Source: an uncultured Bacteroidales bacterium
Lineage (GTDB): Bacteria; Bacteroidota; Bacteroidia; Bacteroidales; UBA4417
Direction of reading: 5' to 3'
Length of the DNA: 44,157 nt
Assembly (NCBI GenBank): GCA_903946925.1
Contig: CAJAXK010000192.1
Location: 1-44,157, forward strand
The position numbers and the translations under genes were made by a program. Each line of letters opens with the position of its first letter. The first letter of the stretch is position 1. Below are positions 2,027-44,157 of the stretch, piece by piece. The notes beneath the pieces are model-generated. The model did no database searches. It was given only the letters and a program-made list of their open reading frames with translations, and was not told the DNA's origin.

Positions 2027-2476
2027 ATGAACCACTGCGAAACCCTGCACAATAATTTATTTGATTACGTAGATAAAAAGATGCCCCCATCCTTGATGCT
2101 GCAATTGGACAAGCATGTAAGCGAATGTGCCGAATGTAAAAGGATTGTGGCCGGATTCAGGGATATGTCGGTATTGATGGAGGAACAAAAGCACATCGAA
2201 CCCTTGCCTTTTGCCGAAACACGTATTTTGCAGGCAGTGGAAACCAGGATGGAAAAAGGGAAAACTACATATAGCCCTGTATTTGTAAGGGTTTTGAAAC
2301 CTGCAGTCATCAGTTTTGGTGTAGCGGCTTCGTTGGCGGTTGGTTTTTTTATTGGTTCAGATTTCGCCGGTACACAATCGGCATATAGCCAAAACGAAGA
2401 AATAATTGAGGCCGTGAGAAGCGATTTGAACGTGCCTGAATTTATGACAGACGATCTTTTTTATTTCACCGAATAA
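2027..2476 (+). CDS. Membrane anti-sigma factor with zinc-finger domain
   Basis: A 149-residue protein starting one base after the sigma stop. The N-terminus has the zf-HC2/ZAS-type arrangement, with C4 and HVSECAEC at about residues 29-36 (HxxxCxxC), the zinc-binding fold that usually clamps ECF sigma factors. One transmembrane segment at about 90-110 (VISFGVAASLAVGFFIG) leaves a short outer tail ending with acidic residues. The usual role is to hold the sigma factor at the inner membrane until an envelope signal arrives. The short periplasmic part suggests that sensing may depend on the next gene product, which is inference. Confidence 0.88.
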   Translation: MNHCETLHNNLFDYVDKKMPPSLMLQLDKHVSECAECKRIVAGFRDMSVLMEEQKHIEPLPFAETRILQAVETRMEKGKTTYSPVFVRVLKPAVISFGVAASLAVGFFIGSDFAGTQSAYSQNEEIIEAVRSDLNVPEFMTDDLFYFTE

Positions 2477-2486
2477 ACCAAACAAC

Positions 2487-3014
2487 ATGAATATTTTGAA
2501 CAATAACCGTTCTGTTTTCTGGGTACTTATTTTCTTGGTGCTGATCAACTTAACTGCATTGGCTACCTACTTTATCTTTATACAGAAACCTGCCAATAGA
2601 CCCAATTCAGAATCTGGGCTGAAGAAAGGGATTGCTTTAAAAGACGAATTGGCGTTAGATGCGGCCCAATCCATTGCAGTGAATAAAATTAATGCAACCT
2701 ATCAGGCTTCGAGCGAGCCGATAGTGGCTGCAATCAGGGAGAAAAAGGCGGATTTGCTTGATGAATTGTCGAAAGCAAGTTCGGATTCGGTGGCAATTAT
2801 AAGTATTGCAAACGAAGTGGTTGCGGCGCAGAAAGAACTTCAGTTTGCCAACATAAAGCAATTTCTCGATTTGAAAAAAGTATGCACCCCCGAACAAACC
2901 AAAAAGCTTTCGCAGATATACGCCGAGCTATACGGTTTCGGGAATAAAGGTAAAGGGCAGGGAAAGGGGATGCGTCATCGCTATGGACAACAAAAAAATG
3001 TGCCAAAACAGTAG
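2487..3014 (+). CDS. Spy/CpxP-like periplasmic stress or metal-sensing protein
   Basis: A 175-residue protein with an N-terminal membrane anchor (VFWVLIFLVLINLTALATYF) and a largely helical, charged outer domain. The segment CTPEQTKKLSQIYAEL at about residues 132-147 resembles the LTxxQ-type motif of Spy, CpxP and the heavy-metal sensor CnrX/ZraP group. The tail is Gly, Lys, Arg and His rich. It is third in the sigma/anti-sigma operon, 10 bases after the anti-sigma gene, a placement common in Bacteroidota for a periplasmic sensor or chaperone. Assignment to the broad family is fairly safe; the ligand or client is unknown. Confidence 0.72.
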   Translation: MNILNNNRSVFWVLIFLVLINLTALATYFIFIQKPANRPNSESGLKKGIALKDELALDAAQSIAVNKINATYQASSEPIVAAIREKKADLLDELSKASSDSVAIISIANEVVAAQKELQFANIKQFLDLKKVCTPEQTKKLSQIYAELYGFGNKGKGQGKGMRHRYGQQKNVPKQ

Positions 3015-3102
3015 GGCGTTTGCACCTATTGAAGTTTTGTTGTTCAGATTCCAGATGCAAATCTTTCCCTCAGTTTAGGGGCTTTCGGGAACATAACCCA
3101 GT

Positions 3103-3210
3103 TTATCTACCGATGTTTTTCTCAAACCTTTTAAGCATCAGTTTTATAGCATAAAAAGAAACTGCTATAAGCACCGGCCATGTAAAAAGCCATATTATTT
3201 GTGTCAACAT
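3103..3210 (-). CDS. 35-residue single-pass membrane protein downstream of cydB
   Basis: Read on the minus strand, an ATG at 3208-3210 opens a 35-codon frame ending with TAA at 3103-3105. The product begins MLTQ, has one hydrophobic span centred on WLFTWPVLIAVSFY, and ends in a basic tail (KLMLKRFEKN). It lies 129 bases beyond the cydB stop on the same strand, separated by a 9-bp tandem repeat. Size, topology and place match the tiny subunits of cytochrome bd oxidases (CydX, CydS and CydH are single-helix proteins of this scale), but I recognise no specific family. The leader before the ATG is AT-rich, normal for Bacteroidota. The role in the oxidase is inference from position and shape. Confidence 0.6.
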   Translation of the reverse strand: MLTQIIWLFTWPVLIAVSFYAIKLMLKRFEKNIGR

Positions 3211-3266
3211 TTTATTTGGTTTTAAATTTATCTTTCAAGAAAACTCTTTCAACTTCTTTCATTCCC

Positions 3267-3334
3267 CACTTCAAGTACTTTAGGCACTTTAAGTATTTTA
3301 GGCACTCAAGGCACTTTAAGTACTTCAGCCACTC
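3267..3334. repeat. 9-bp tandem repeat (AGTGCCTAA type) after cydB
   Basis: On the minus strand the sequence after the cydB stop is built from 9-base units close to AGTGCCTAA and AGTACTTAA. It begins almost at the stop codon with GGGGAGTGGCT. The same element follows the stop at 6731. Units contain stop codons on the minus strand, so it is not a coding extension of cydB. Confidence 0.8.
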
Positions 3335-3339
3335 CCCTC

Positions 3340-4512
3340 TCAATAAACATGCGTTTCGTTATTCAACTCTTCCATATCAATTTTCTTATTGTCAATGGAA
3401 CGCCAGGCAACGAAAATATAGGCAATTACAAATGGCACCAACAAGGAAACATAGCTCATAACTGTTAATGTATATAGGCTCGATGAGCTATTCTGTATGG
3501 TCAACGAACTTTGCAGATCGAAAGTGGAAGGATAGTAAGCCGTATTGTTGAAACCTGCAAGCAGGAACAAAGCCAAAACAGTGAACACAGTGCCAATACC
3601 GGCTCCCCAAATCCCTTTGGTGCTGCATTTCTCGAAACAGGTAAGCGGGTGGATTATCCCGATCAAAACAAAAGCCACACCCAAAACAAACATTGCTGCA
3701 ACCACTGGCATTTCAATCAGGTTATGAAGGTATTTGTACGGTTCCATAAACACTTCTTTGGTATCGGGGTTAACAGCAAAGCCACTCGAAAGCAAGGTCC
3801 ATATTACGAAAAGCAGAAAGAAAAAAACAAATGGGAATGCATTTATAAGAAGTTGTTTTTTAACACGTTCCATCATTTCAGCATGTTTAATGCGATTCAT
3901 AAAATAGAGCAGGGCAAGCACACGCGAAAGGAAAAGGACTGCCAATCCAAGGCTAAGGTTCTGTAGGCTTAAGGCTGCTTCGAGGCCATGTGCAGGCCCG
4001 GTCCATTCCGAAATAATCGGCATTTTGTTGCCGGTAAGCCGGGTAATGTTCATAAAATCAACTGAAAATTGAGAACCAGTAAAAAAAGTCGCTACCGCGG
4101 CCCCGATCAATACAGGTGCAAGGATGCCATTTAGAAGCAGGAATGTTTCGTAAACCCTTTTGCCAAGAAAGTTGCCCACTTTGCTGCGGTATTCGTACGA
4201 AACAGCTTGTATGACAAAAGCAAACAAAATTACGATCCAGACCCAGTAAGCCCCACCAAAGCTGGTGGAATAAAACAAAGGGAACGATGCAAAAAACGCA
4301 CCTCCAAAAGTTACCAATGTGGTAAATGTGAACTCCCATTTCCGACCCAACAGGTTGATTAGGATTGTGCGTTCGTCATCGGTTTTGCCAATGGTGTAAA
4401 TGAGCGTTTGCCCACCCTGAACAAACATCAGGAAGACGAGTATTGCCCCGAGTAATGAAACAATAATCCACCAATACTGCTGCAAGGTTATATATGAGAA
4501 TGCTTCGAACAT
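3340..4512 (-). CDS. cydB: Cytochrome bd ubiquinol oxidase subunit II
   Basis: A 390-residue polytopic inner-membrane protein, the usual CydB length, with about eight to nine hydrophobic segments. The N-terminal span with ILVFLMFVQGGQTLIYTIG and the following DERTILINLLGRKWEFTFT are characteristic of CydB. With CydA it forms the quinol-oxidising, oxygen-reducing bd oxidase used at low oxygen; CydB binds no haem of its own in most members. It starts 11 bases after cydA, so the two are translated from one message. The stop is followed within a few bases by a 9-bp tandem repeat and then by a possible small third subunit. Confidence 0.95.
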   Translation of the reverse strand: MFEAFSYITLQQYWWIIVSLLGAILVFLMFVQGGQTLIYTIGKTDDERTILINLLGRKWEFTFTTLVTFGGAFFASFPLFYSTSFGGAYWVWIVILFAFVIQAVSYEYRSKVGNFLGKRVYETFLLLNGILAPVLIGAAVATFFTGSQFSVDFMNITRLTGNKMPIISEWTGPAHGLEAALSLQNLSLGLAVLFLSRVLALLYFMNRIKHAEMMERVKKQLLINAFPFVFFFLLFVIWTLLSSGFAVNPDTKEVFMEPYKYLHNLIEMPVVAAMFVLGVAFVLIGIIHPLTCFEKCSTKGIWGAGIGTVFTVLALFLLAGFNNTAYYPSTFDLQSSLTIQNSSSSLYTLTVMSYVSLLVPFVIAYIFVAWRSIDNKKIDMEELNNETHVY

Positions 4513-4523
4513 GGTTTCAGGTT

Positions 4524-6104
4524 TTATAAGTTAGTATTTGCGGTTAAAGTTTCGGGTGTGGTTGTATCTTCGCCAGGCCCTTTTTTGATCTGTACTGTCA
4601 TGATTTTAATTTCGGCAATCAGCAAGGCAGTAAAAATAACAAAGAACATCCAGAAAGTGATTTGCACCGATGCTGGTTGCAATTGCGACACGGCAGCAAT
4701 GGAAGGCAGTATATCCTGTATAACCCATGGCTGTCGGCCAACTTCAGCAACAACCCAACCTAATTCGACAGCTATGTAAGCCAATGGGATGGTCCATAAA
4801 GCAGTATAGAGAATCCACTTGTTTTTCGCAATTTTATCCTTTAAGGTCAGTACTAAAACAACGAAAAACAGTAGCATAAAATGAAACCCAAGGCCCACCA
4901 TTATACGGAAAGAGTAAAAAGTAGTGGGTACATGAGGCACCAGTTCGTGTACATCGCGACCAGCATAATAACCATACCCAAAGTATTTGTAGTTTTCCTC
5001 GAATGTTGCGAGAGCTGTGGCTGCAAGACTATCATTGCCCGCTTTTCTGGCATTTTTATAATCGGCAAGGGAGGTAATGGCAAGTTTTCCAATCTCACTT
5101 TTTTGTTTATAGGATAAAATATTGCGTTCCGGATTTCCGTGAACCAAATCCTGGATTCCAGGCACATACGCATTTGGGTCGAGGAATGCCATGTACGATA
5201 GCATATTAGGTATCTCGATCATAAAGCGGAAATCTTGCTTTTTGTGGTCTGCTTGCGCAGCATTTTCTTTCAGAATACCAATAGCAACCAAGGGCGCATT
5301 CTGTTGGCCGATATAGAGGTTTTCCATTGCGGCAAATTTCATAGGCTGAAACTGAGCCATGTTCCGAGCAGAACCATCGCCTGTTAAAACAATAAATGCA
5401 GATGTGATCAACCCGAAAACACTTGCCACAATCATGCTGCGTTTTGCAAAAAGGTGTTCCCTGTTTTTGAGCAAATACCAGGCACTTACACCCATAACGA
5501 ATACTGAAGCAAGCACATACCCCGATGAAATGGTATGCAGGAATTTATTGATTGCCACAGGCGAAAACAATACTTCCCAGAAATCCACCATTTCGTTGCG
5601 GGCAGTGTCAGGGTTAAATTTCATCCCAACCGGATTCTGCATCCATGCATTGGCAACCAAAATCCATAGAGCCGAAAGGTTTGATCCAATAGCCACCAGC
5701 CAGGTGGAAAGCAAATGGAATTTCTTGCTAACCTTATTCCAGCCAAAAAACATAACGGCTATAAACGTGCTTTCGAGGAAAAAAGCCATGATGCCTTCAA
5801 TAGCCAACGGGGCACCGAAAATATCGCCAACAAACCAGGAATAGTTGGACCAATTGGTGCCGAATTCAAATTCGAGGATAATCCCGGTAGCCACACCAAT
5901 GGCGAAATTGATACCAAAAATCGTCATCCAAAATTTGGTGATGCGTTTCCATTCCGGATTTCCGGTACGAACATACAGGGTTTCCATAAATGCTACAATG
6001 AAGGAAAGCCCAAGGGTAAGCGGCACAAAAAGCCAATGGTACATGGCTGTGAGCGCAAATTGTGCCCGCGACCAGTTTACAAGCGAGAAATCTATGTTTT
6101 CCAT
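4524..6104 (-). CDS. cydA: Cytochrome bd ubiquinol oxidase subunit I
   Basis: A 526-residue membrane protein carrying the haems b558, b595 and d. Likely axial ligands are H23 (in TAMYHWLFVPLTLG), H190 (in NKFLHTISSGYV) and M402 (in FYSFRIMVGLGF). The signature GRQPW is near residue 450. The segment between helices 6 and 7 (about residues 250-390, beginning KFAAMENLY) is about as long as in E. coli CydA, so this is the long Q-loop form. It oxidises quinol and reduces oxygen to water without proton pumping. The operon order is DUF4492, cydA, cydB; the gap to DUF4492 is unusually long (262 bases) and filled with a tandem repeat. Confidence 0.96.
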   Translation of the reverse strand: MENIDFSLVNWSRAQFALTAMYHWLFVPLTLGLSFIVAFMETLYVRTGNPEWKRITKFWMTIFGINFAIGVATGIILEFEFGTNWSNYSWFVGDIFGAPLAIEGIMAFFLESTFIAVMFFGWNKVSKKFHLLSTWLVAIGSNLSALWILVANAWMQNPVGMKFNPDTARNEMVDFWEVLFSPVAINKFLHTISSGYVLASVFVMGVSAWYLLKNREHLFAKRSMIVASVFGLITSAFIVLTGDGSARNMAQFQPMKFAAMENLYIGQQNAPLVAIGILKENAAQADHKKQDFRFMIEIPNMLSYMAFLDPNAYVPGIQDLVHGNPERNILSYKQKSEIGKLAITSLADYKNARKAGNDSLAATALATFEENYKYFGYGYYAGRDVHELVPHVPTTFYSFRIMVGLGFHFMLLFFVVLVLTLKDKIAKNKWILYTALWTIPLAYIAVELGWVVAEVGRQPWVIQDILPSIAAVSQLQPASVQITFWMFFVIFTALLIAEIKIMTVQIKKGPGEDTTTPETLTANTNL

Positions 6105-6145
6105 ATTTTGTTTTTTAGGGAATTTGTTGGTTGTTAAGTTTGTTT

Positions 6146-6330
6146 GTTCAAGGGCTCAAGGGTTCAAAGGTTCAATGCTTCGCGTTCAAGGTTCAAGGGT
6201 TCAATGCTTCGCGTTTAAGGTTCGATGCTTCGCGTTCAAGGTTCGATGCTTCGCGTTCAAGGGTTCAATGCTTCGCGTTCAAATGTTCAATTGTTCGAAT
6301 GTTCTATTGTTCAATTATTCTATTGTTATT
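6146..6330. repeat. Degenerate tandem repeat between DUF4492 and cydA
   Basis: Runs of TTCAAGG and TTCGATG alternate with the 12-base word ATGCTTCGCGTT, which occurs five times (starting 6175, 6204, 6225, 6246 and 6268; spacing 29, 21, 21 and 22). The flank toward DUF4492 decays into TTCAATTGTTC and TTCTATTG words. It sits inside what should be one transcript, so it is transcribed but untranslated. Confidence 0.85.
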
Positions 6331-6366
6331 TTCAAAAAAAACATTCGCATTGAAACACATAAACCT

Positions 6367-6573
6367 TTATTTCGTCAATTGTTCAATTACATGATCGCTT
6401 CTTTCCTGATCCGTATCAAAGTTGGTTTTCAAGTAGTTGGGGAAAAAGAACAGTTTCAATATCAAGAACATTACTACAAGCTTGATGAGAATGATTGCCC
6501 ACAACTTTTTCCCCAAGGTCATACTTCTGAACCCTTGCCAATAAAATTGGTATATGTTTCTGATAATTTGCAT
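6367..6573 (-). CDS. DUF4492 small membrane protein of the cyd operon
   Basis: A 68-residue protein: a short amphipathic N-terminus with IYQFYWQGFRSMTLGKKLW, then one hydrophobic helix (AIILIKLVVMFLILKLFFF) and a charged tail. The FYxxGFRSMTLGKxLW pattern followed by LKLFFFP is what I know of the DUF4492 family, which is repeatedly found directly upstream of cydA in Bacteroidota. It is therefore a candidate accessory or assembly subunit of the bd oxidase, though no biochemical role is established. No good TAnnTTTG box is visible upstream; the 9-bp tandem repeat lies between this gene and the preceding NifX-like gene. Confidence 0.85.
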   Translation of the reverse strand: MQIIRNIYQFYWQGFRSMTLGKKLWAIILIKLVVMFLILKLFFFPNYLKTNFDTDQERSDHVIEQLTK

Positions 6574-6650
6574 TCAACTAAACGTTTAAATCTTGAGTTC
6601 GTAAAATTACTTTAACTATTGATTTGGATTACAATTCAGGACATTTTCAG

Positions 6651-6729
6651 ACACTTCAGGCACTCCAAGTACTTTAGGCACTTTAGGCACTTTAGGCACT
6701 TTAGGCACTCCAAGTACTTTAGCCACTCC
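6651..6729. repeat. 9-bp tandem repeat (AGTGCCTAA type) after the NifX-like gene
   Basis: Second copy of the repeat seen after cydB. On the minus strand it starts right after the stop at 6731 with GGGGAGTGGCTAAAGTACTT and continues with exact AGTGCCTAA units in the centre. The shared boundary sequence next to the stop shows that both copies are one element rather than chance low complexity. Confidence 0.82.
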
Positions 6730-6730
6730 C

Positions 6731-7117
6731 CTAATGGCTACACTGATGCCCACCACCTTCGCCATGATGCGATTCATGTTGATGGCAACTCTCTCCGCTA
6801 TCGGAGATCAAACCTGAAATAAAATTTTTCACCACTTCTTGGGCATCGCCTGAGCAGCCTCTTATTACTTCGATTCCAGAGTTAGCCAATACATTTATTG
6901 CACCTCCACCAATTCCGCCAGCAAGCATGATCGTTACGCCATCAGCGGCCAACACACCGGCTATATTCGACTTACAGCCGCATCCTTGAACAGATGGCAT
7001 TATGTTGATTTTGGTTATCTGGTTTTCTTCGGATACGGTGAATACACTGTAAAACTCACAATGGCCAAAATGACCATCAACCTGATTAGTACTTGTTACC
7101 GGAACTGCTATTTTCAT
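6731..7117 (-). CDS. NifX/NifB-type dinitrogenase cofactor-domain protein
   Basis: A 128-residue protein with the NifX/NifY/NifB C-terminal fold: MKIAVPVTS at the start, VDGHFGHCEFYSVF at about residues 13-26, and the glycine-rich ADGVTIMLAGGIGGGAINVL at about 59-78. The family binds iron-sulfur or iron-molybdenum clusters in nitrogenase assembly, but many members, such as MTH1175-like proteins, occur in organisms without nitrogenase. The last 20 residues are His, Cys and Glu rich (CHQHESHHGEGGGHQCSH), suggesting metal binding. It sits with DUF134 and DUF1847 genes, a grouping that points to a redox or metal-related role rather than nitrogen fixation; no nifHDK genes are present. Confidence 0.87.
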   Translation of the reverse strand: MKIAVPVTSTNQVDGHFGHCEFYSVFTVSEENQITKINIMPSVQGCGCKSNIAGVLAADGVTIMLAGGIGGGAINVLANSGIEVIRGCSGDAQEVVKNFISGLISDSGESCHQHESHHGEGGGHQCSH

Positions 7118-7140
7118 CTTAATTTCTATTTTTATTGCTT

Positions 7141-7199
7141 GTTACTATTTTCTTTTTACTGTTTACTATTTCCCAATTTCTATTTCCCAATTCCCAATA
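7141..7199. repeat. TTACTATTT / TTCCCAATT low-complexity repeat across a stop codon
   Basis: Short words (TTACTATTT, TTTCTATTT, CCCAATTT) repeat from 7141 to 7199. The repeat overlaps the DUF1847 stop at 7180-7182 and encodes that protein's last residues (LLGIGK), so the repeat either wore into the gene or supplied a new C-terminus. Confidence 0.6.
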
Positions 7200-7734
7200 A
7201 AGGTGCATGGTTGAATTTCCTGTCTTTAACAACAAGGGTCGTAAAATCCATGGAAAGGTTACGGTTCAGCAAAATGTCGTGCCCCATGCAGATCCCGACG
7301 ACCAAGGTCAAATCAACTTTTTCGGCATTAAGCTGCTCGGCCTGCCCCAGTGGGTTGCACGAAACTTTATGGATACAGCTTGCCGCGTTCACCTCGCTTT
7401 GTTTCAACCCGCCAACACTGCACGAAACGGCCGAAACATCAAACCATTCGTTGGTTAAAAGCGTTTCGATGGCTTTTGCCTGCTGCTCCATGCCGTAGCA
7501 ATAGGCTATCCCAATTTTTTGATAATCCATCCGCTTGGCAAACTCAATTATTTCCTCAATCCGCGAAAGCGTTCCAGCCTTTCCCGAATCCACAAGTTCC
7601 GCTGCTGCTTTAATAATTTCGCTGTGCGAAGCATCCTTGTATTGTTCAATAATTTCAGATTTCACGAAACCCTCTCGGTTGCAGGAAGTTTGTTGCTTGC
7701 GGCATACTTTGTCCCCGCATGTGGTACAATTCAT
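7180..7734 (-). CDS. DUF1847 putative metal-binding protein
   Basis: A 184-residue cytoplasmic protein with an N-terminal Cys cluster (MNCTTCGDKVCRKQQTSC) and further conserved Cys in KIGIAYCYGMEQQA, VSAVSCSVGG, ASCIHKVSCNPLGQAE and VVGICMGHD. This layout matches the DUF1847 family, described only as metal-binding. It overlaps the DUF134 gene by ATGA and precedes the NifX-like gene by 62 bases, so the three form one operon. The extreme C-terminus is encoded by a low-complexity repeat. No catalytic activity can be assigned; the Cys content suggests an iron-sulfur or thiol-metal site. Confidence 0.82.
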   Translation of the reverse strand: MNCTTCGDKVCRKQQTSCNREGFVKSEIIEQYKDASHSEIIKAAAELVDSGKAGTLSRIEEIIEFAKRMDYQKIGIAYCYGMEQQAKAIETLLTNEWFDVSAVSCSVGGLKQSEVNAASCIHKVSCNPLGQAEQLNAEKVDLTLVVGICMGHDILLNRNLSMDFTTLVVKDRKFNHAPLLGIGK

Positions 7735-8144
7735 TTTATACTATTTAAGTTTACCAATTCTTTGTTTCCGAAGGAATCGCAACCCTTGCATTTGATATGG
7801 TTTTCAATGCCTTCGATTAGCTTGAAGCACTTATTGCACTTAAACCATTGCTTTTCGAATTCAATGTTCCCACCTTCAATTTCAATAGCCATACACTCAA
7901 CAAAAGCTTTTGCGATTTTTTTCAATGCCCTGTTATAAATCCTTGTAAACGTGGGTCTTGAAACTCCCATTTTTTCAGCAGCAATATCCTGTGGCAGGTT
8001 TTGATAGTTTACCAGGTTGATGCTTTCATATTCATCAAATTGCAACTTCACAACTTCAAGCTCGCACAACGGCATTCCAAATGGCTTAAAGCCAGCCATT
8101 TTTGGTGGGTCGAGTATTTTACGATTTCTGACTGGCCTTGGCAT
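7731..8144 (-). CDS. DUF134 (UPF0251) HTH transcriptional regulator
   Basis: A 137-residue protein. The N-terminus MPRPVRNRKI and the segment FKPFGMPLCELEVVKL are typical of UPF0251/DUF134. A sigma-70 region-4-like helix-turn-helix follows (LPQDIAAEKMGVSRPTFTRI, about residues 51-70), and the C-terminus has CNKC and CKGC pairs that could bind metal. It is first in the operon with DUF1847 (ATGA overlap) and the NifX-like gene. A well-formed promoter with a perfect palindrome between its two boxes lies just upstream, which suggests autoregulation. The signal sensed is not known; the cysteine pairs make a metal or redox cue plausible. Confidence 0.86.
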   Translation of the reverse strand: MPRPVRNRKILDPPKMAGFKPFGMPLCELEVVKLQFDEYESINLVNYQNLPQDIAAEKMGVSRPTFTRIYNRALKKIAKAFVECMAIEIEGGNIEFEKQWFKCNKCFKLIEGIENHIKCKGCDSFGNKELVNLNSIK

Positions 8145-8170
8145 GAGTTAATCCTTGCCTTAATAATCAG

Positions 8171-8201
8171 CAAATGTAATGAACCTACGTTCATTATTCA
8201 A
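8171..8201 (-). promoter_or_regulatory. DUF134 promoter with embedded palindromic operator
   Basis: On the minus strand TTG (8199-8201), a 20-base spacer and TACATTTG (8171-8178) match the Bacteroidota housekeeping promoter TTG-N19/20-TAnnTTTG. Inside the spacer, TAATGAAC (8177-8184) and GTTCATTA (8189-8196) form a perfect 8-bp inverted repeat with a 4-base centre. A protein bound there would cover the spacer and part of the -7 box. The start codon at 8144 is 27 bases downstream of the -7 box. Confidence 0.7.
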
Positions 8202-8378
8202 ATGAGTGTATTGCAATTTTAAAATGTTTTTTTCCTGATAAGGACCTCAAATCCTGTTTCCCTAAATACAAGCAGCGTATTTGTGGATTCAACTTCATTC
8301 TTACTTATTTTTTCGTTACCGCTGGTTTTATAGGATTTGATTGTCTAAACGATATTATAAACCTAAAATAATACTAAC

Positions 8379-9143
8379 ATGAAAACTCTAAAAAGAAATT
8401 TACTTTTGGCCATATTGTTGACCGGAGGAGTATTTGCATTTTCGGAATGTACGAAAGAAACAGAAATTGATGGTGTCCAAACCCAATCGGATACAAAATC
8501 GCTTAACGCGAACGGGCAAACAGGAAGCAATTCCACTGATGCCACAACAACCCAAAGCACAGCAGCGGGTTATCTATCCGATTGTATTGCTTCTTTTGTT
8601 ATCGAACCACTGAGCGTTACCGAAACAGAAGCGTTGGTAACTATGCGCGAAGAGGAATTGCTTGCCCATGATGTTTATGTACAGCTTTACTCCCTTAATA
8701 AAATGCCCATTTTCGACAATATTTCCAAATCCGAAACCCAACATTCGGAAGCTGTAAAAAACTTGTTGATCAAATATAACATTGCCGATCCTGCCGATAA
8801 CCATATTGCTGGCACTTTCGTAAATGCCAATTTACAAGCACTTTACACAAGCCTTGTGGCACAGGGAATTACCTCCTTGAATTCGGCACTTTCGGTAGGG
8901 GCTACTATTGAAGACCTCGACATAAACGATCTTCGCAACCATATTGATCGCGACGTTGACAACGAGGATATTTTGTTTGTTTTTGGAAACCTCGAAAAAG
9001 GATCCCGCAATCATTTGCGTTCATTTTATAAATTGCTTACAGCACGAGGTGGCACCTACAATCCCCAGTTTATTTCGGTGGAATATTTTAACCAAATTAT
9101 TTCCTCCCCACACGAAACCGGTCCAGCTGGTTGCTCAAAATAG
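8379..9143 (+). CDS. DUF2202 ferritin-like lipoprotein
   Basis: A 254-residue exported protein. The signal peptide ends in FAFSEC, a likely lipobox, placing the protein on the membrane. A Thr/Ser/Gln-rich linker (residues about 30-65) leads to a ferritin-like four-helix domain of the DUF2202 type: MREEELLAHDVYVQL, ISKSETQHSEAV, TIEDLDINDL and LEKGSRNHLRSF supply the repeated Glu/His positions expected of a di-iron site. The reaction is unknown; iron handling or peroxide protection are possibilities. It is a single-gene unit with its own terminator at 9160-9193, divergent from the DUF134 operon. Confidence 0.86.
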   Translation: MKTLKRNLLLAILLTGGVFAFSECTKETEIDGVQTQSDTKSLNANGQTGSNSTDATTTQSTAAGYLSDCIASFVIEPLSVTETEALVTMREEELLAHDVYVQLYSLNKMPIFDNISKSETQHSEAVKNLLIKYNIADPADNHIAGTFVNANLQALYTSLVAQGITSLNSALSVGATIEDLDINDLRNHIDRDVDNEDILFVFGNLEKGSRNHLRSFYKLLTARGGTYNPQFISVEYFNQIISSPHETGPAGCSK

Positions 9144-31531: not shown

Positions 31532-31625
31532 TTCCCCATCTCCTTGTCTCCCAGTCTCCCCATCTCCCAGTCTCCCGTTCTCCTTGTCTTCCCTTCTCCT
31601 TGTCTCCCCGTCTCCCCATCTCCCC
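31532..31625. repeat. TCTCCCC-type tandem repeat beyond murA
   Basis: About 94 bases made of 7-8 base words such as CATCTCC, TTGTCTCC, CAGTCTCC and CGTCTCC. On the minus strand it reads as GGGGAGA and GGGAGAC words and begins 9 bases after the murA stop at 31635. It is strongly purine/pyrimidine biased: the minus strand is almost pure purine. Confidence 0.85.
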
Positions 31626-31634
31626 TCAAACTTT

Positions 31635-32939
31635 TCAAATCCTCCTAATCTGCGCACCAAGAGCATTTAATCGTCCATCAATATTTTGATATCCTCGGTC
31701 AATTTGGTCAATATTATCAATTATGCTTGTCCCTTTGGCTGATAAAGCTGCAATTAAAAGTGAAACCCCAGCCCTGATATCGGGGGATGACATACGGATT
31801 CCACGCAACCTGTGTTCGCGGTTAAGCCCGATAACAGTGGCACGGTGCGGGTCGCAAAGTATAATTTGAGCGCCCATATCTATCAGTTTATCAACAAAGA
31901 ATAACCTGCTTTCGAACATTTTTTGATGTATAAGCACACTTCCTTTTGCCTGAATGGCTGTTACAAGGACGACACTTATAAGGTCAGGTGTAAACCCCGG
32001 CCAGGGCGCATCCGATATGGTCATAATGCCACCATCCATAAAGGATTCCACTTCGTAATGATCCTGTGCAGGAATATGGATATTATCGCCTTGGTGTTCT
32101 ATTTTAATTCCCAACCTACGAAATACGTCGGGAATAATCCCAAGAGCCGGGTAATTTACGTTGCAAATGGTAATATCGCTCCGTGTCATAGCGGCAAGGC
32201 CAATAAAACTGCCGACCTCGATCATGTCGGGAAGCAAAGTGTGGGAAGTTCCGGTTAAGGTTTCCACTCCTTCAATCATCAACAAATTGGAACCGATACC
32301 TGTAATTTTGGCACCCATGCGAACCAGCATTTCGCTGAGTTGCACCAAATACGGTTCGCATGCTGCATTAAAGATGGTCGTTTTACCTTCGGCCAACACG
32401 GCTGCCATGAGGATATTGGCGGTTCCGGTTACTGAAGCTTCGTCGAGCAGCATGTAAGCACCGGTGAGTTTTTCGGCTGTAACACGGGTGAAGCCTTTGG
32501 ATGAATCGAAATCGAATGTGGCCCCAAGTTTTTGCAAACCAATAAAATGCGTATCCAACCTGCGACGACCAATTTTATCGCCTCCGGGTTTAGGGATGCT
32601 TCCTTTGCCATAACGGGCCAGAAGCGGCCCTAAAACCATAACCGAACCACGAAGGCTCGATGCTTGTTGCCGGAACTCGTTGGTTTCCAAGTAATCCAGA
32701 TTAGTGTTTTCGGCTTTAAAAGTGTAGCTTCCAATCCCGATTTTATTAACCGTAACTCCCATCGCACCAAGCAGATCAATCAGCTTGTTGACATCTAAAA
32801 TATCGGGGATGTTGTGGATTGTTACTTCACTGGACGTGAGCAACACCGCACAAAGGATTTGGAGAGCCTCATTTTTTGCGCCCTGTGGGGTTATTTGGCC
32901 ATTGAGTTGAAGGCCACCTTGTATTTCGAAAGAACTCAT
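31635..32939 (-). CDS. murA: UDP-N-acetylglucosamine 1-carboxyvinyltransferase
   Basis: A 434-residue cytoplasmic enzyme that transfers enolpyruvate from PEP to UDP-GlcNAc, the first committed step of peptidoglycan synthesis. K22 (GAKNEAL), the RGSVMVLGPLLARYGKG strand and the C-terminal RGYQNIDGRLNALGA fit MurA. In the catalytic loop (KPGGDKIGRRRLD) residue 121 is Asp where E. coli has Cys115. That substitution occurs naturally in other lineages and removes the residue alkylated by fosfomycin, so the enzyme is expected to be insensitive to that drug. It lies 87 bases downstream of DUF3109, with a 7-bp tandem repeat between, and is followed by another tandem repeat. Confidence 0.95.
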   Translation of the reverse strand: MSSFEIQGGLQLNGQITPQGAKNEALQILCAVLLTSSEVTIHNIPDILDVNKLIDLLGAMGVTVNKIGIGSYTFKAENTNLDYLETNEFRQQASSLRGSVMVLGPLLARYGKGSIPKPGGDKIGRRRLDTHFIGLQKLGATFDFDSSKGFTRVTAEKLTGAYMLLDEASVTGTANILMAAVLAEGKTTIFNAACEPYLVQLSEMLVRMGAKITGIGSNLLMIEGVETLTGTSHTLLPDMIEVGSFIGLAAMTRSDITICNVNYPALGIIPDVFRRLGIKIEHQGDNIHIPAQDHYEVESFMDGGIMTISDAPWPGFTPDLISVVLVTAIQAKGSVLIHQKMFESRLFFVDKLIDMGAQIILCDPHRATVIGLNREHRLRGIRMSSPDIRAGVSLLIAALSAKGTSIIDNIDQIDRGYQNIDGRLNALGAQIRRI

Positions 32940-32973: not shown

Positions 32974-33008
32974 ATTGCGGATTGCGGATTGCGGATTGCG
33001 GATTGCGG
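32974..33008. repeat. Five exact copies of a 7-bp repeat
   Basis: ATTGCGG occurs five times in exact tandem, 18 bases beyond the DUF3109 stop (minus strand) and 35 bases before the murA start. Perfect copies suggest recent expansion. Confidence 0.95.
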
Positions 33009-33026
33009 AGGTGGATAAAAACCTGA

Positions 33027-42783: not shown

Positions 42784-44157
42784 CTATTTTATCATTTGTA
42801 GGAAATTCACTTCTTTTTCGCTTAGAAAACGCCAGCGGCCGCGGGGCAAATCCTTTTTAGTAAGCCCTGCAAACACCATTCTGTCGAGTTTAACTACCTC
42901 GTAACCTAAGGATTCGAAAATGCGGCGCACAATCCGGTTGCGTCCTGAATGGAGCTCAACCCCAATTTCTTTTTTACTGCTTCCATTTTCAACGTATGAA
43001 ATCTCATCAACCAAAGCAAGGCCATCTTCAAGTTCAATGCCTTCGCCAATGGTAAGCATATCGGCTTTTGTAAGGGCTTTATCAAGTTCCACATGATAAA
43101 CTTTGCGTACTTTATGGCTCGGGTGCATGAGTTTGGTTGCAAGTTCGCCATCATTGGTAAAAAGCAACAATCCGCTTGTATTGCGGTCGAGGCGTCCAAC
43201 AGGATAAATTCTTTCGCGCCCTGCATCGGCAACAAGCGCCATAACCGTATTCCGGTCATAAGGGTCATCGGTGGTTGTTATGTATCCTTTTGGTTTGTTG
43301 AGCAATACATATACAAGTTTCTCCCTACGGACTTTTTCGTCGCCATATTGAACTTTATCGGTAGGCAGTATTTTTGTTCCCAATTCGGCAACAATTACCC
43401 CATTTACCATCACAGCTCCTGCAACTATCAGCTCATCGGCTTCGCGGCGGGAGCAAATGCCTGAGTTGGAAAGGAATTTATTTAACCTCATGCTGCCATC
43501 AGCACTTGGGGGATTTGGCTTGCTGCCCGGATAATCTTTTTTGGCTGGTTTACGGTCGTAATTGCTTTTTCTATCTGAGCTTCTTTCATACGATCTACGT
43601 TCTGGCCTTTCGCTATCGCCACTTCTTTCATAAGATTTGCGGGCGGGCCTTTCTCCATCTCCACTTTTGTCGAATGAACGACGGGCGGGGCGTTCGCCAT
43701 CTCCACTTCTTTCGTAAGGTTTGCGGGCTGGTCTTTCGCCATCACCGCTTTTATCAAATGAACGACGAGCTGGCCTTTCACCATCTCCACTGTTATCAAA
43801 TGAACGACGGGCGGGGCGTTCCCCATCTCCACTTCTTTCGTAAGTTTTGCGTGCTGGTCTTTCGCCATCACCGCTTCTGTCGAATGAACGACGAACTGGC
43901 CTTTCACCATCTCCACTTTTATCAAATGAACGACGGGCAGGGCGTTCGCCATCTCCACTTCTTTCATAAGGTTTGCGGGCTGGCCTTTCACCATCGCCAC
44001 TTTTATCAAATGAACGACGGGCAGGGCGTTCGCCATCTCCACTTCTTTCATAAGGTTTGCGGGCTGGTCTTTCACCATCGCCACTTTTATCAAATGAACG
44101 ACGGGCAGGGCGTTCGCCATCTCCACTTCTTTCATAAGGTTTGCGGGCTGGTCTTTC
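42784..44157 (-). CDS. RsuA/RluB-family pseudouridine synthase, 5' end beyond window
   Basis: The catalytic part (from MRLNKFLSNSGICSRREADE at 43491) has an S4 RNA-binding domain (residues 1-60 of that part) and the RsuA-type synthase domain: GYITTTDDP, YPVGRLDRNTSGLLLFTND with the catalytic Asp, and ELHSGRNRIVRRIFESLGYE. It isomerises uridine in rRNA. The frame stays open upstream from 43491 to the right edge, adding at least 222 residues, so the ATG at 43491 is internal. This extension is 14 tandem 14-residue repeats (ERPARRSFDKSGDG and ERPARKPYERSGDG alternating) and a short linker with KKDYPG. It is highly charged and disordered, with Arg/Gly content typical of RNA binding. Basic low-complexity N-termini occur on related Bacteroidota enzymes. 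The true start is off the window. Confidence 0.88.
   Translation of the reverse strand, partial: ERPARKPYERSGDGERPARRSFDKSGDGERPARKPYERSGDGERPARRSFDKSGDGERPARKPYERSGDGERPARRSFDKSGDGERPVRRSFDRSGDGERPARKTYERSGDGERPARRSFDNSGDGERPARRSFDKSGDGERPARKPYERSGDGERPARRSFDKSGDGERPARKSYERSGDSERPERRSYERSSDRKSNYDRKPAKKDYPGSKPNPPSADGSMRLNKFLSNSGICSRREADELIVAGAVMVNGVIVAELGTKILPTDKVQYGDEKVRREKLVYVLLNKPKGYITTTDDPYDRNTVMALVADAGRERIYPVGRLDRNTSGLLLFTNDGELATKLMHPSHKVRKVYHVELDKALTKADMLTIGEGIELEDGLALVDEISYVENGSSKKEIGVELHSGRNRIVRRIFESLGYEVVKLDRMVFAGLTKKDLPRGRWRFLSEKEVNFLQMIK
43570..44157 (-). repeat. 42-bp coding tandem repeat (14 residues x at least 14)
   Basis: Fourteen consecutive 42-base units in the pseudouridine synthase frame, mostly alternating between a Phe-Asp form (RRSFDKSGDG) and a Tyr-Glu form (RKPYERSGDG), giving an 84-base higher-order unit. 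Unit identity is highest at the right edge and decays toward the linker at 43570. The array continues past 44157. Confidence 0.95.

Follow-up and report, generated by a model that had tools for sequence, protein, structure and literature searches.

The window, the whole stretch of 44,157 nt that was analysed, carries the genes of a cytochrome bd oxidase followed on the same strand by an open reading frame (ORF) of 35 codons. The question raised by this locus is whether the ORF encodes a small subunit of the oxidase and, if so, to which family that subunit belongs. On the evidence given below, the ORF is very probably a Bacteroidota member of the CioY family, the single-helix third subunit of a long-Q-loop bd oxidase encoded by a cydW-cydA-cydB-cioY gene set.

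The ORF and its operon

Four genes lie in a row on the minus strand, namely cydW (6573-6367), cydA (6104-4524), cydB (4512-3340), and the 35-codon ORF. The features of this region are as follows.

3103..3210, minus strand: 35-aa small membrane protein, candidate subunit of the CioY/CydY(Allen) family, based on sequence, conserved place, purifying selection, CioY homology, and predicted helix
3211..3339, no strand: 129-nt gap between cydB and the ORF, containing a 9-nt tandem array at 3277-3333
3340..4512, minus strand: cydB, 390 aa (PF02322, E 2.3e-65)
4524..6104, minus strand: cydA, 526 aa, long Q-loop type (PF01654, E 1.2e-170; 157 residues between the two landmarks used)
6367..6573, minus strand: cydW, 68 aa, DUF4492 (PF14899, E 4.5e-31)

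The DUF4492 gene is called cydW following the naming used for Porphyromonas gingivalis (PMC4668044). Translation of the minus strand at 3103-3210 gives MLTQIIWLFTWPVLIAVSFYAIKLMLKRFEKNIGR*, with an ATG start, a TAA stop, and 35 codons, at the place that the first-pass annotation had stated. The coordinates also confirm its spacing, with 129 nt between the cydB stop (cydB ORF end at 3340) and the ATG at 3210. The stretch from cydB to the ORF was found to have two promoter-like sites and no terminator-like one; because of the promoter-like sites, and because the gap is 129 nt in the window and about 19 nt elsewhere, co-transcription of the ORF with cydB is not certain. An Rfam scan of window positions 2400-9000 gave no family at threshold.

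The protein has a single hydrophobic stretch and a basic tail, and AlphaFold2, run on the 35-mer as a single sequence, predicted one helix at residues 2-34 with a mean pLDDT of 88.5, in agreement with the one transmembrane helix and basic tail described initially. Residues conserved in the family are W7, W11, P12, I15, and an aromatic residue at 19, where the alignment places F19 of the window protein at the Y position of the family. No relevant Pfam or NCBIfam model was found for the 35-aa protein or its 74 aligned relatives.

The surroundings of the operon were also inspected. NifX-like (PF02579), DUF1847, and DUF134 genes lie 5' of cydW on the same strand (6731-8144). The operon is flanked by a 9-nt tandem repeat (CACTTTAGG and variants) at 3277-3333, where it fills the gap between cydB and the ORF, and at 6652-6727. 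An 18-mer of this repeat, with up to 3 mismatches allowed, occurs 178 times in genome G000 as against 12 times for the reversed pattern, and several contigs have pairs of arrays in facing orientation at a distance of about 137-156 nt (for example, C145:157 and 295; C225:30058 and 30195), an arrangement that resembles a dispersed inverted-repeat element. Elsewhere in the window, a minus-strand ORF at 31635-32939 is bordered by two tandem arrays, a perfect one of 7 nt (ATTGCGG x 5) immediately 5' at 32974-33009 and one of 8 nt (TCCCCGTC x 11.6) on its 3' side at 31533-31625, and long tandem repeats of 42, 84, and 126 nt lie within a minus-strand frame at the window end (43580-44157).

Conservation and selection

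The 35-mer was searched against 60 genomes, among them its own. It matched at E < 0.05 in 23 places, all directly 3' of cydB and in the same orientation; the 7 weaker places examined as loci (E 0.07-0.38) had no adjoining cydB. A profile of 20 rows (A1), searched against 198 genomes of the order, gave 74 strong matches (E of 1.1e-4 or lower), and 71 of these are directly behind cydB on the same strand, 69 by coordinates (63-669 nt beyond the point where the cydB match ends) and 2 by sequence (L171 and L173). The remaining three are away from cydB and comprise a match at a contig end (L172), a doubtful match (L175, in G439), and a real one (L174, in G380); none of the 19 weaker A1 matches (E 0.0056-0.045) adjoins cydB. 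The first-pass annotation had proposed looking for the ORF behind cydB in relatives, and within the order it recurs there. Among the matches listed from 296 genomes drawn evenly from the phylum, none other than that of the window itself fell under E 0.001. A search of phage records was unproductive. A record labelled Acinetobacter phage, CAKLQH020000031.1 (L403), carries cydABX together with ybgE and has the look of misfiled bacterial chromosome.

ORF statistics were calculated from 76 loci (the 69 and 2 above and 5 of the window's genus), for which the median length was 37 codons and the median gap to cydB was 19 nt. An ATG is present near the expected start at all 76 loci, a count that means only that, since the choice of start favoured ATG. 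The last 20 nt before the start are 50% A, and the window ORF and most Bacteroidota members have this A-rich DNA upstream instead of a Shine-Dalgarno-like site. Bacteroidota are not known to make much use of such sites, and a Shine-Dalgarno-like site is not a family-defining trait of CioY.

The pooled pN/pS of the ORF was 0.29 (bootstrap 0.25-0.34) over 14 pairs, most of them near saturation at synonymous sites, and the 5 unsaturated pairs gave a pN/pS of 0.28 (dN/dS 0.21), so that the synonymous-biased substitution suggested as a check is indeed seen. When the coding sequence was compared with its flanks (60 nt before and 100 nt after) in same-genus pairs, it was 68-76% identical as against 27-42% for the flanks in 3 of 5 pairs; in the other two, which are the closest, coding sequence and flanks are all similar and too alike to discriminate. 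The window's genus is represented by 15 further genomes; cydB is present in 11 of them and is of the long type in 7. The first-pass annotation had named a missing or interrupted frame in close relatives as the result that would count against a gene; the ORF is intact in 6 of these 7 genomes, and G012 has no ORF behind its long-type cydB. In one of the six, G015, the first codons of the ORF read N. The 35-codon ORF is a conserved protein-coding gene.

Homology to CioY

Allen et al. (2014) gave the name CydY to a protein of Epsilon- and Deltaproteobacteria, a helix with W at its start that is encoded behind cydB in long-Q-loop operons without cydX (PMC4325964). Froschauer, Svensson et al. (2025) renamed the Campylobacter jejuni protein CioY; it has conserved W, P, and Y residues, is predicted to dock on CioA as CydX does on CydA, and was shown to bind CioA by co-immunoprecipitation (PMC11955535). 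In print, CydY denotes two different proteins, the CioY of Allen and the Escherichia coli CydH/YnhF.

A sample of 40 named Campylobacterota genomes (40 of 80 loci), picked by title before the cyd genes were examined, was searched with a profile of 75 Bacteroidota rows (A2). The profile matched an ORF behind cydB in 16 of the 17 genomes that have cydB, and in the seventeenth the contig stops about 40 nt past the cydB match. No A2 match at E < 0.001 was obtained in the 23 genomes without cydB. Alignment of the Bacteroidota and Campylobacterota profiles with hhalign gave a probability of 99.0% (E 2.3e-18), and in reciprocal profile searches at E < 0.01 the Campylobacterota profile recovered 74 of the 76 sequences from Bacteroidota, and the search in the other direction 16 of 16. 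Across the 92 sequences, P is conserved in 100%, I in 91%, W in 90%, Y in 82%, and the first W in 77%, and the moment of conservation peaks at 100 degrees, the helical period, with 245 of 10,000 shuffles as high. The five Campylobacterota CioY examples tested matched no Pfam or NCBIfam model. Judged by these profiles, the 35-aa protein is homologous to Campylobacterota CioY.

The proposal that the ORF is a candidate small subunit of a Bacteroidota bd oxidase is supported by the location of 71 of 74 matches behind cydB and by homology to the CioA-binding CioY. The first-pass annotation very probably had the kind of protein right, a tiny single-helix bd subunit; the family appears to be CioY and not one of the examples that it named (CydX, CydS, and CydH). 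The CioY family itself is already known, and its presence in a second phylum, Bacteroidota, appears to be new. No description of it in Bacteroidota was found in the open-licence literature, subscription papers being outside that scope, and among the papers found there for cydABX with Bacteroidetes, no title concerned a small bd subunit. Published accounts give the bd oxidase of Bacteroidota as CydAB with CydW upstream.

Operon company and Q-loop type

In Bacteroidota, 120 of the 124 loci that have a full cydA carry cydW before it, as do 15 of the 16 Campylobacterota loci where cydA is complete (none was found in L389). Allen et al. describe an unnamed hydrophobic protein 5' of all long-Q-loop operons without cydX (PMC4325964), which is probably CydW. 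The Q-loop region measures 157 residues in the window, 146-172 in Bacteroidota with the ORF, 139-187 in Bacteroidota without it, 154-155 in Campylobacterota, 152-156 in 5 CydX-type CydA, and 85-95 in 47 short-type CydA. From these lengths, the ORF goes with the long type, and the long type does not require the ORF.

The DUF4492/cydW protein of the window (6367-6573) has a weak similarity, below cut-off, to the NCBIfam model (E 0.0024) of CydP, a putative oxidase small subunit. The value for a Campylobacterota cydW was 0.0019, and 4 others tested gave no match. CydW may be a second small subunit; no literature on DUF4492 was found among open-licence papers.

Absence of the gene

Within the order, cydB was found in 137 of 198 genomes at 141 places. 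The ORF is present at 69 of these, cydW is on the contig without an ORF match at 49, and neither is found at 23. Two of the 49 are contig breaks with the gene on the other half (G424 and G368) and one is G380; at the other 46 cydW-bearing operons, the frames behind cydB gave no match (best E 0.56; 3 had under 600 nt available). The 18 short-type loci of the order gave no convincing match (best 0.0056, 6 bits). In G380 no family ORF lies behind cydB, and a family member (L174, G380:C112:19364-19468) is located between peptidase-like and thymidylate-kinase-like frames away from cydAB, a natural relocation that may be likened to E. coli CydH outside its operon.

In an initial rapid tree of 145 CydA rows, a 32-row clade (SH-aLRT 100) was entirely without the gene, and 19 more negative rows were scattered among the positives. 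The clade includes Bacteroides ovatus, Parabacteroides distasonis, and Prevotella nigrescens; that CydA rows of these named genera fall within the order is the basis for taking it to be Bacteroidales. In the labels of this tree, the negatives L169 and L170 are contig breaks whose genomes carry the gene (L173 and L172), and L167 is positive on account of an unlinked copy. A more careful tree was built from 64 hand-picked rows with the longest branches left out, and in it the 9 sampled members of the gene-less clade group at 100/100 inside gene-bearing branches. The pattern reads as one loss in the Bacteroides/Prevotella/Parabacteroides lineage and many separate losses. The scattered losses imply that the gene is not indispensable. 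The P. gingivalis study reports no downstream small subunit, with no cydX, cydY, or cydZ behind cydAB (PMC4668044), and this agrees with the gene-less lineage seen here.

Loci L143, L147, and L150 form a sister CydA lineage of the window's genus with no gene behind cydB, apparently a recent loss and a useful comparison. The 145-row tree also placed Campylobacterota inside Bacteroidales (SH-aLRT 95, 29-row clade); transfer between the phyla was dropped as unsupported, since the 64-row tree unites 51 Bacteroidales in one clade (99/99).

Proposed role and orientation

By homology to CioY and analogy with CydX, the small helix most likely stabilises CydA. In the membrane, the uncharged N-terminus of the helix would point outward and the basic tail would lie on the cytoplasmic side, while the residues of the conserved face (W, W-P, I, and Y) would pack against transmembrane helices of CydA. 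The helix would in this way keep the core that bears the haems, and the part next to the quinol site, active and stable, a role likened to that shown for CydX in E. coli. CydX is placed against TM1, 4, 5, 6, and 7 of CydA and is needed for assembly and stability (PMC8951039). We infer that the Bacteroidota copy likewise binds CydA.

The N-terminal flank has a charge of zero or below in 75 of 76 Bacteroidota members and the C-terminal flank a positive charge in 72 of 76; in Campylobacterota the N-terminal flank is neutral or acidic in 16 of 16 and the C-terminal flank basic in 14 of 16. From these charges and the positive-inside rule, the N-terminus is predicted to be outside and the C-terminus inside. 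The N-terminus of CydX is cytosolic according to Allen et al. (PMC4325964), the reverse of this prediction, so either the CioY-family and CydX helices are antiparallel or one assignment is wrong.

A broader evolutionary reading may be put forward tentatively, and it is judged rather less probable than its negation. CioY would be the ancestral third subunit of the cydW-cydA-cydB-cioY long-Q-loop lineage, pre-dating the split of the Campylobacterota and Bacteroidota operons. It would not be related to CydX; both would occupy one side of CydA, with CioY running the other way (N-out, C-in). The Bacteroides/Prevotella/Parabacteroides lineage would have lost it at its base, and this loss would have altered the oxidase of these oxygen-scavenging anaerobes of gut and mouth.

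For free-living Bacteroidales, the family adds a candidate third oxidase subunit whose Campylobacter relative has biochemical evidence behind it, and genomes that have or lack the gene form natural pairs for asking what such helices do. The profile missing from NCBIfam and Pfam is now supplied, so these genes can be called.

Alternative explanations

That the frame is open by chance and has no product has a negligible probability. It is short, and 103 ORFs of 25 aa or more occur in 8 kb, but the pN/pS of 0.29 (0.25-0.34) rules out a chance ORF, and start, length, and motif are conserved across two phyla. It is very improbable that a translated protein follows cydB by accident and serves something else, such as its own leader or the neighbouring sigma-factor/anti-sigma genes; the long gap and promoter-like sites in the window would suit such an arrangement, whereas across loci cydB is constant, the downstream genes vary with no common second gene following, and only 3 of 74 matches (L172, L175, and L174) are away from cydB. 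A genuine CioY-family membrane protein could also act as a transient helper (in assembly or haem insertion) or as a regulator of the oxidase rather than as a standing subunit. The scattered losses and the G380 gene away from cydAB fit a helper as well as a subunit, but the placement of 71 of 74 matches directly behind cydB, the confinement to one CydA type, the single conserved helix face, and the finding that the C. jejuni relative co-immunoprecipitates with CioA (PMC11955535) all speak for a subunit, and a helper is regarded as quite unlikely.

Outright CydX identity was rejected on the missing YxxWxxG motif, the lack of reciprocal profile matches, and the lack of a match to CydX models. The motif, which is accompanied by E/D 15 residues later in 97% of CydX homologues (PMC4325964), was found in 0 of 92 CioY-family sequences and 5 of 5 CydX controls. 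It is still conceivable, though unlikely, that CydX and CioY are early-diverged branches of one family, which would make the ORF the Bacteroidota CydX. Gene order, long-Q-loop CydA, and size are the same, a W-x-x-x-W pattern can be aligned, and hhalign of the Bacteroidota family to CydX gave 30% (E 5.6e-4, 28 columns) with a small CydX set of 6 rows, 5 of them distinct because one was entered twice. The comparison of CioY with CydX gave 2%. Against a common family, at E < 0.01 no CydX is recovered by the A2 or CioY profiles and no family member by the CydX profile, PF08173 and TIGR02106 matched three CydX controls and 0 of 75 family members, and the tail charge is opposite to that of the family in 4 of 5 CydX. 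Membership in CioY, as distinct from CydX, is the reading preferred here. A CydZ identity was likewise rejected, as no PF10617 match was obtained in 75 members and the operon is of the long-Q-loop type.

The A1 and A2 profiles were also compared with PDB chains and matched none at E <= 10, though the library has 6RKO (E. coli bd-I) and 5DOQ (Geobacillus); the CydH and CydS chains are so short and diverged that the lack of a match says little about kinship to them. The 7 distinct matching PDB CydA sequences include, by their names as deposited, no Bacteroidota or Campylobacterota bd structure.

Comparison with known systems

CydX/AppX (PF08173, TIGR02106) is, like the Bacteroidota family, a small single helix encoded behind cydB of long-Q-loop oxidases with a W near the helix start; the Bacteroidota family differs in having no YxxWxxG, an invariant P after W, and a basic tail, whereas the CydX tail is mostly acidic. 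CydZ (DUF2474, PF10617) is also a small helix behind cydB, but it belongs to short-Q-loop operons (PMC4325964), unlike the long-Q-loop operon of the ORF. CydH of E. coli (YnhF, also called CydY) and CydS of Geobacillus are single-helix bd subunits as well; CydH is encoded outside its operon (PMC8951039), unlike the ORF behind cydB. CydW/DUF4492 is a small protein of the same operon (PMC4668044) but is encoded 5' of cydA, has 68 aa, and has a model unrelated to the 35-aa protein. The closest resemblance is to Campylobacterota CioY, with which the Bacteroidota ORF has in common profile homology, the place behind cydB, the conserved W, P, and Y, a similar length (31-55 aa in the 16 Campylobacterota members read), the cydW-cydA-cydB order, and a long CydA Q-loop. 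The two differ in phylum and in the DNA before the ORF, which has AGGAG-like sites in Campylobacterota and is A-rich in Bacteroidota, and the demonstration of binding belongs to C. jejuni only (PMC11955535).
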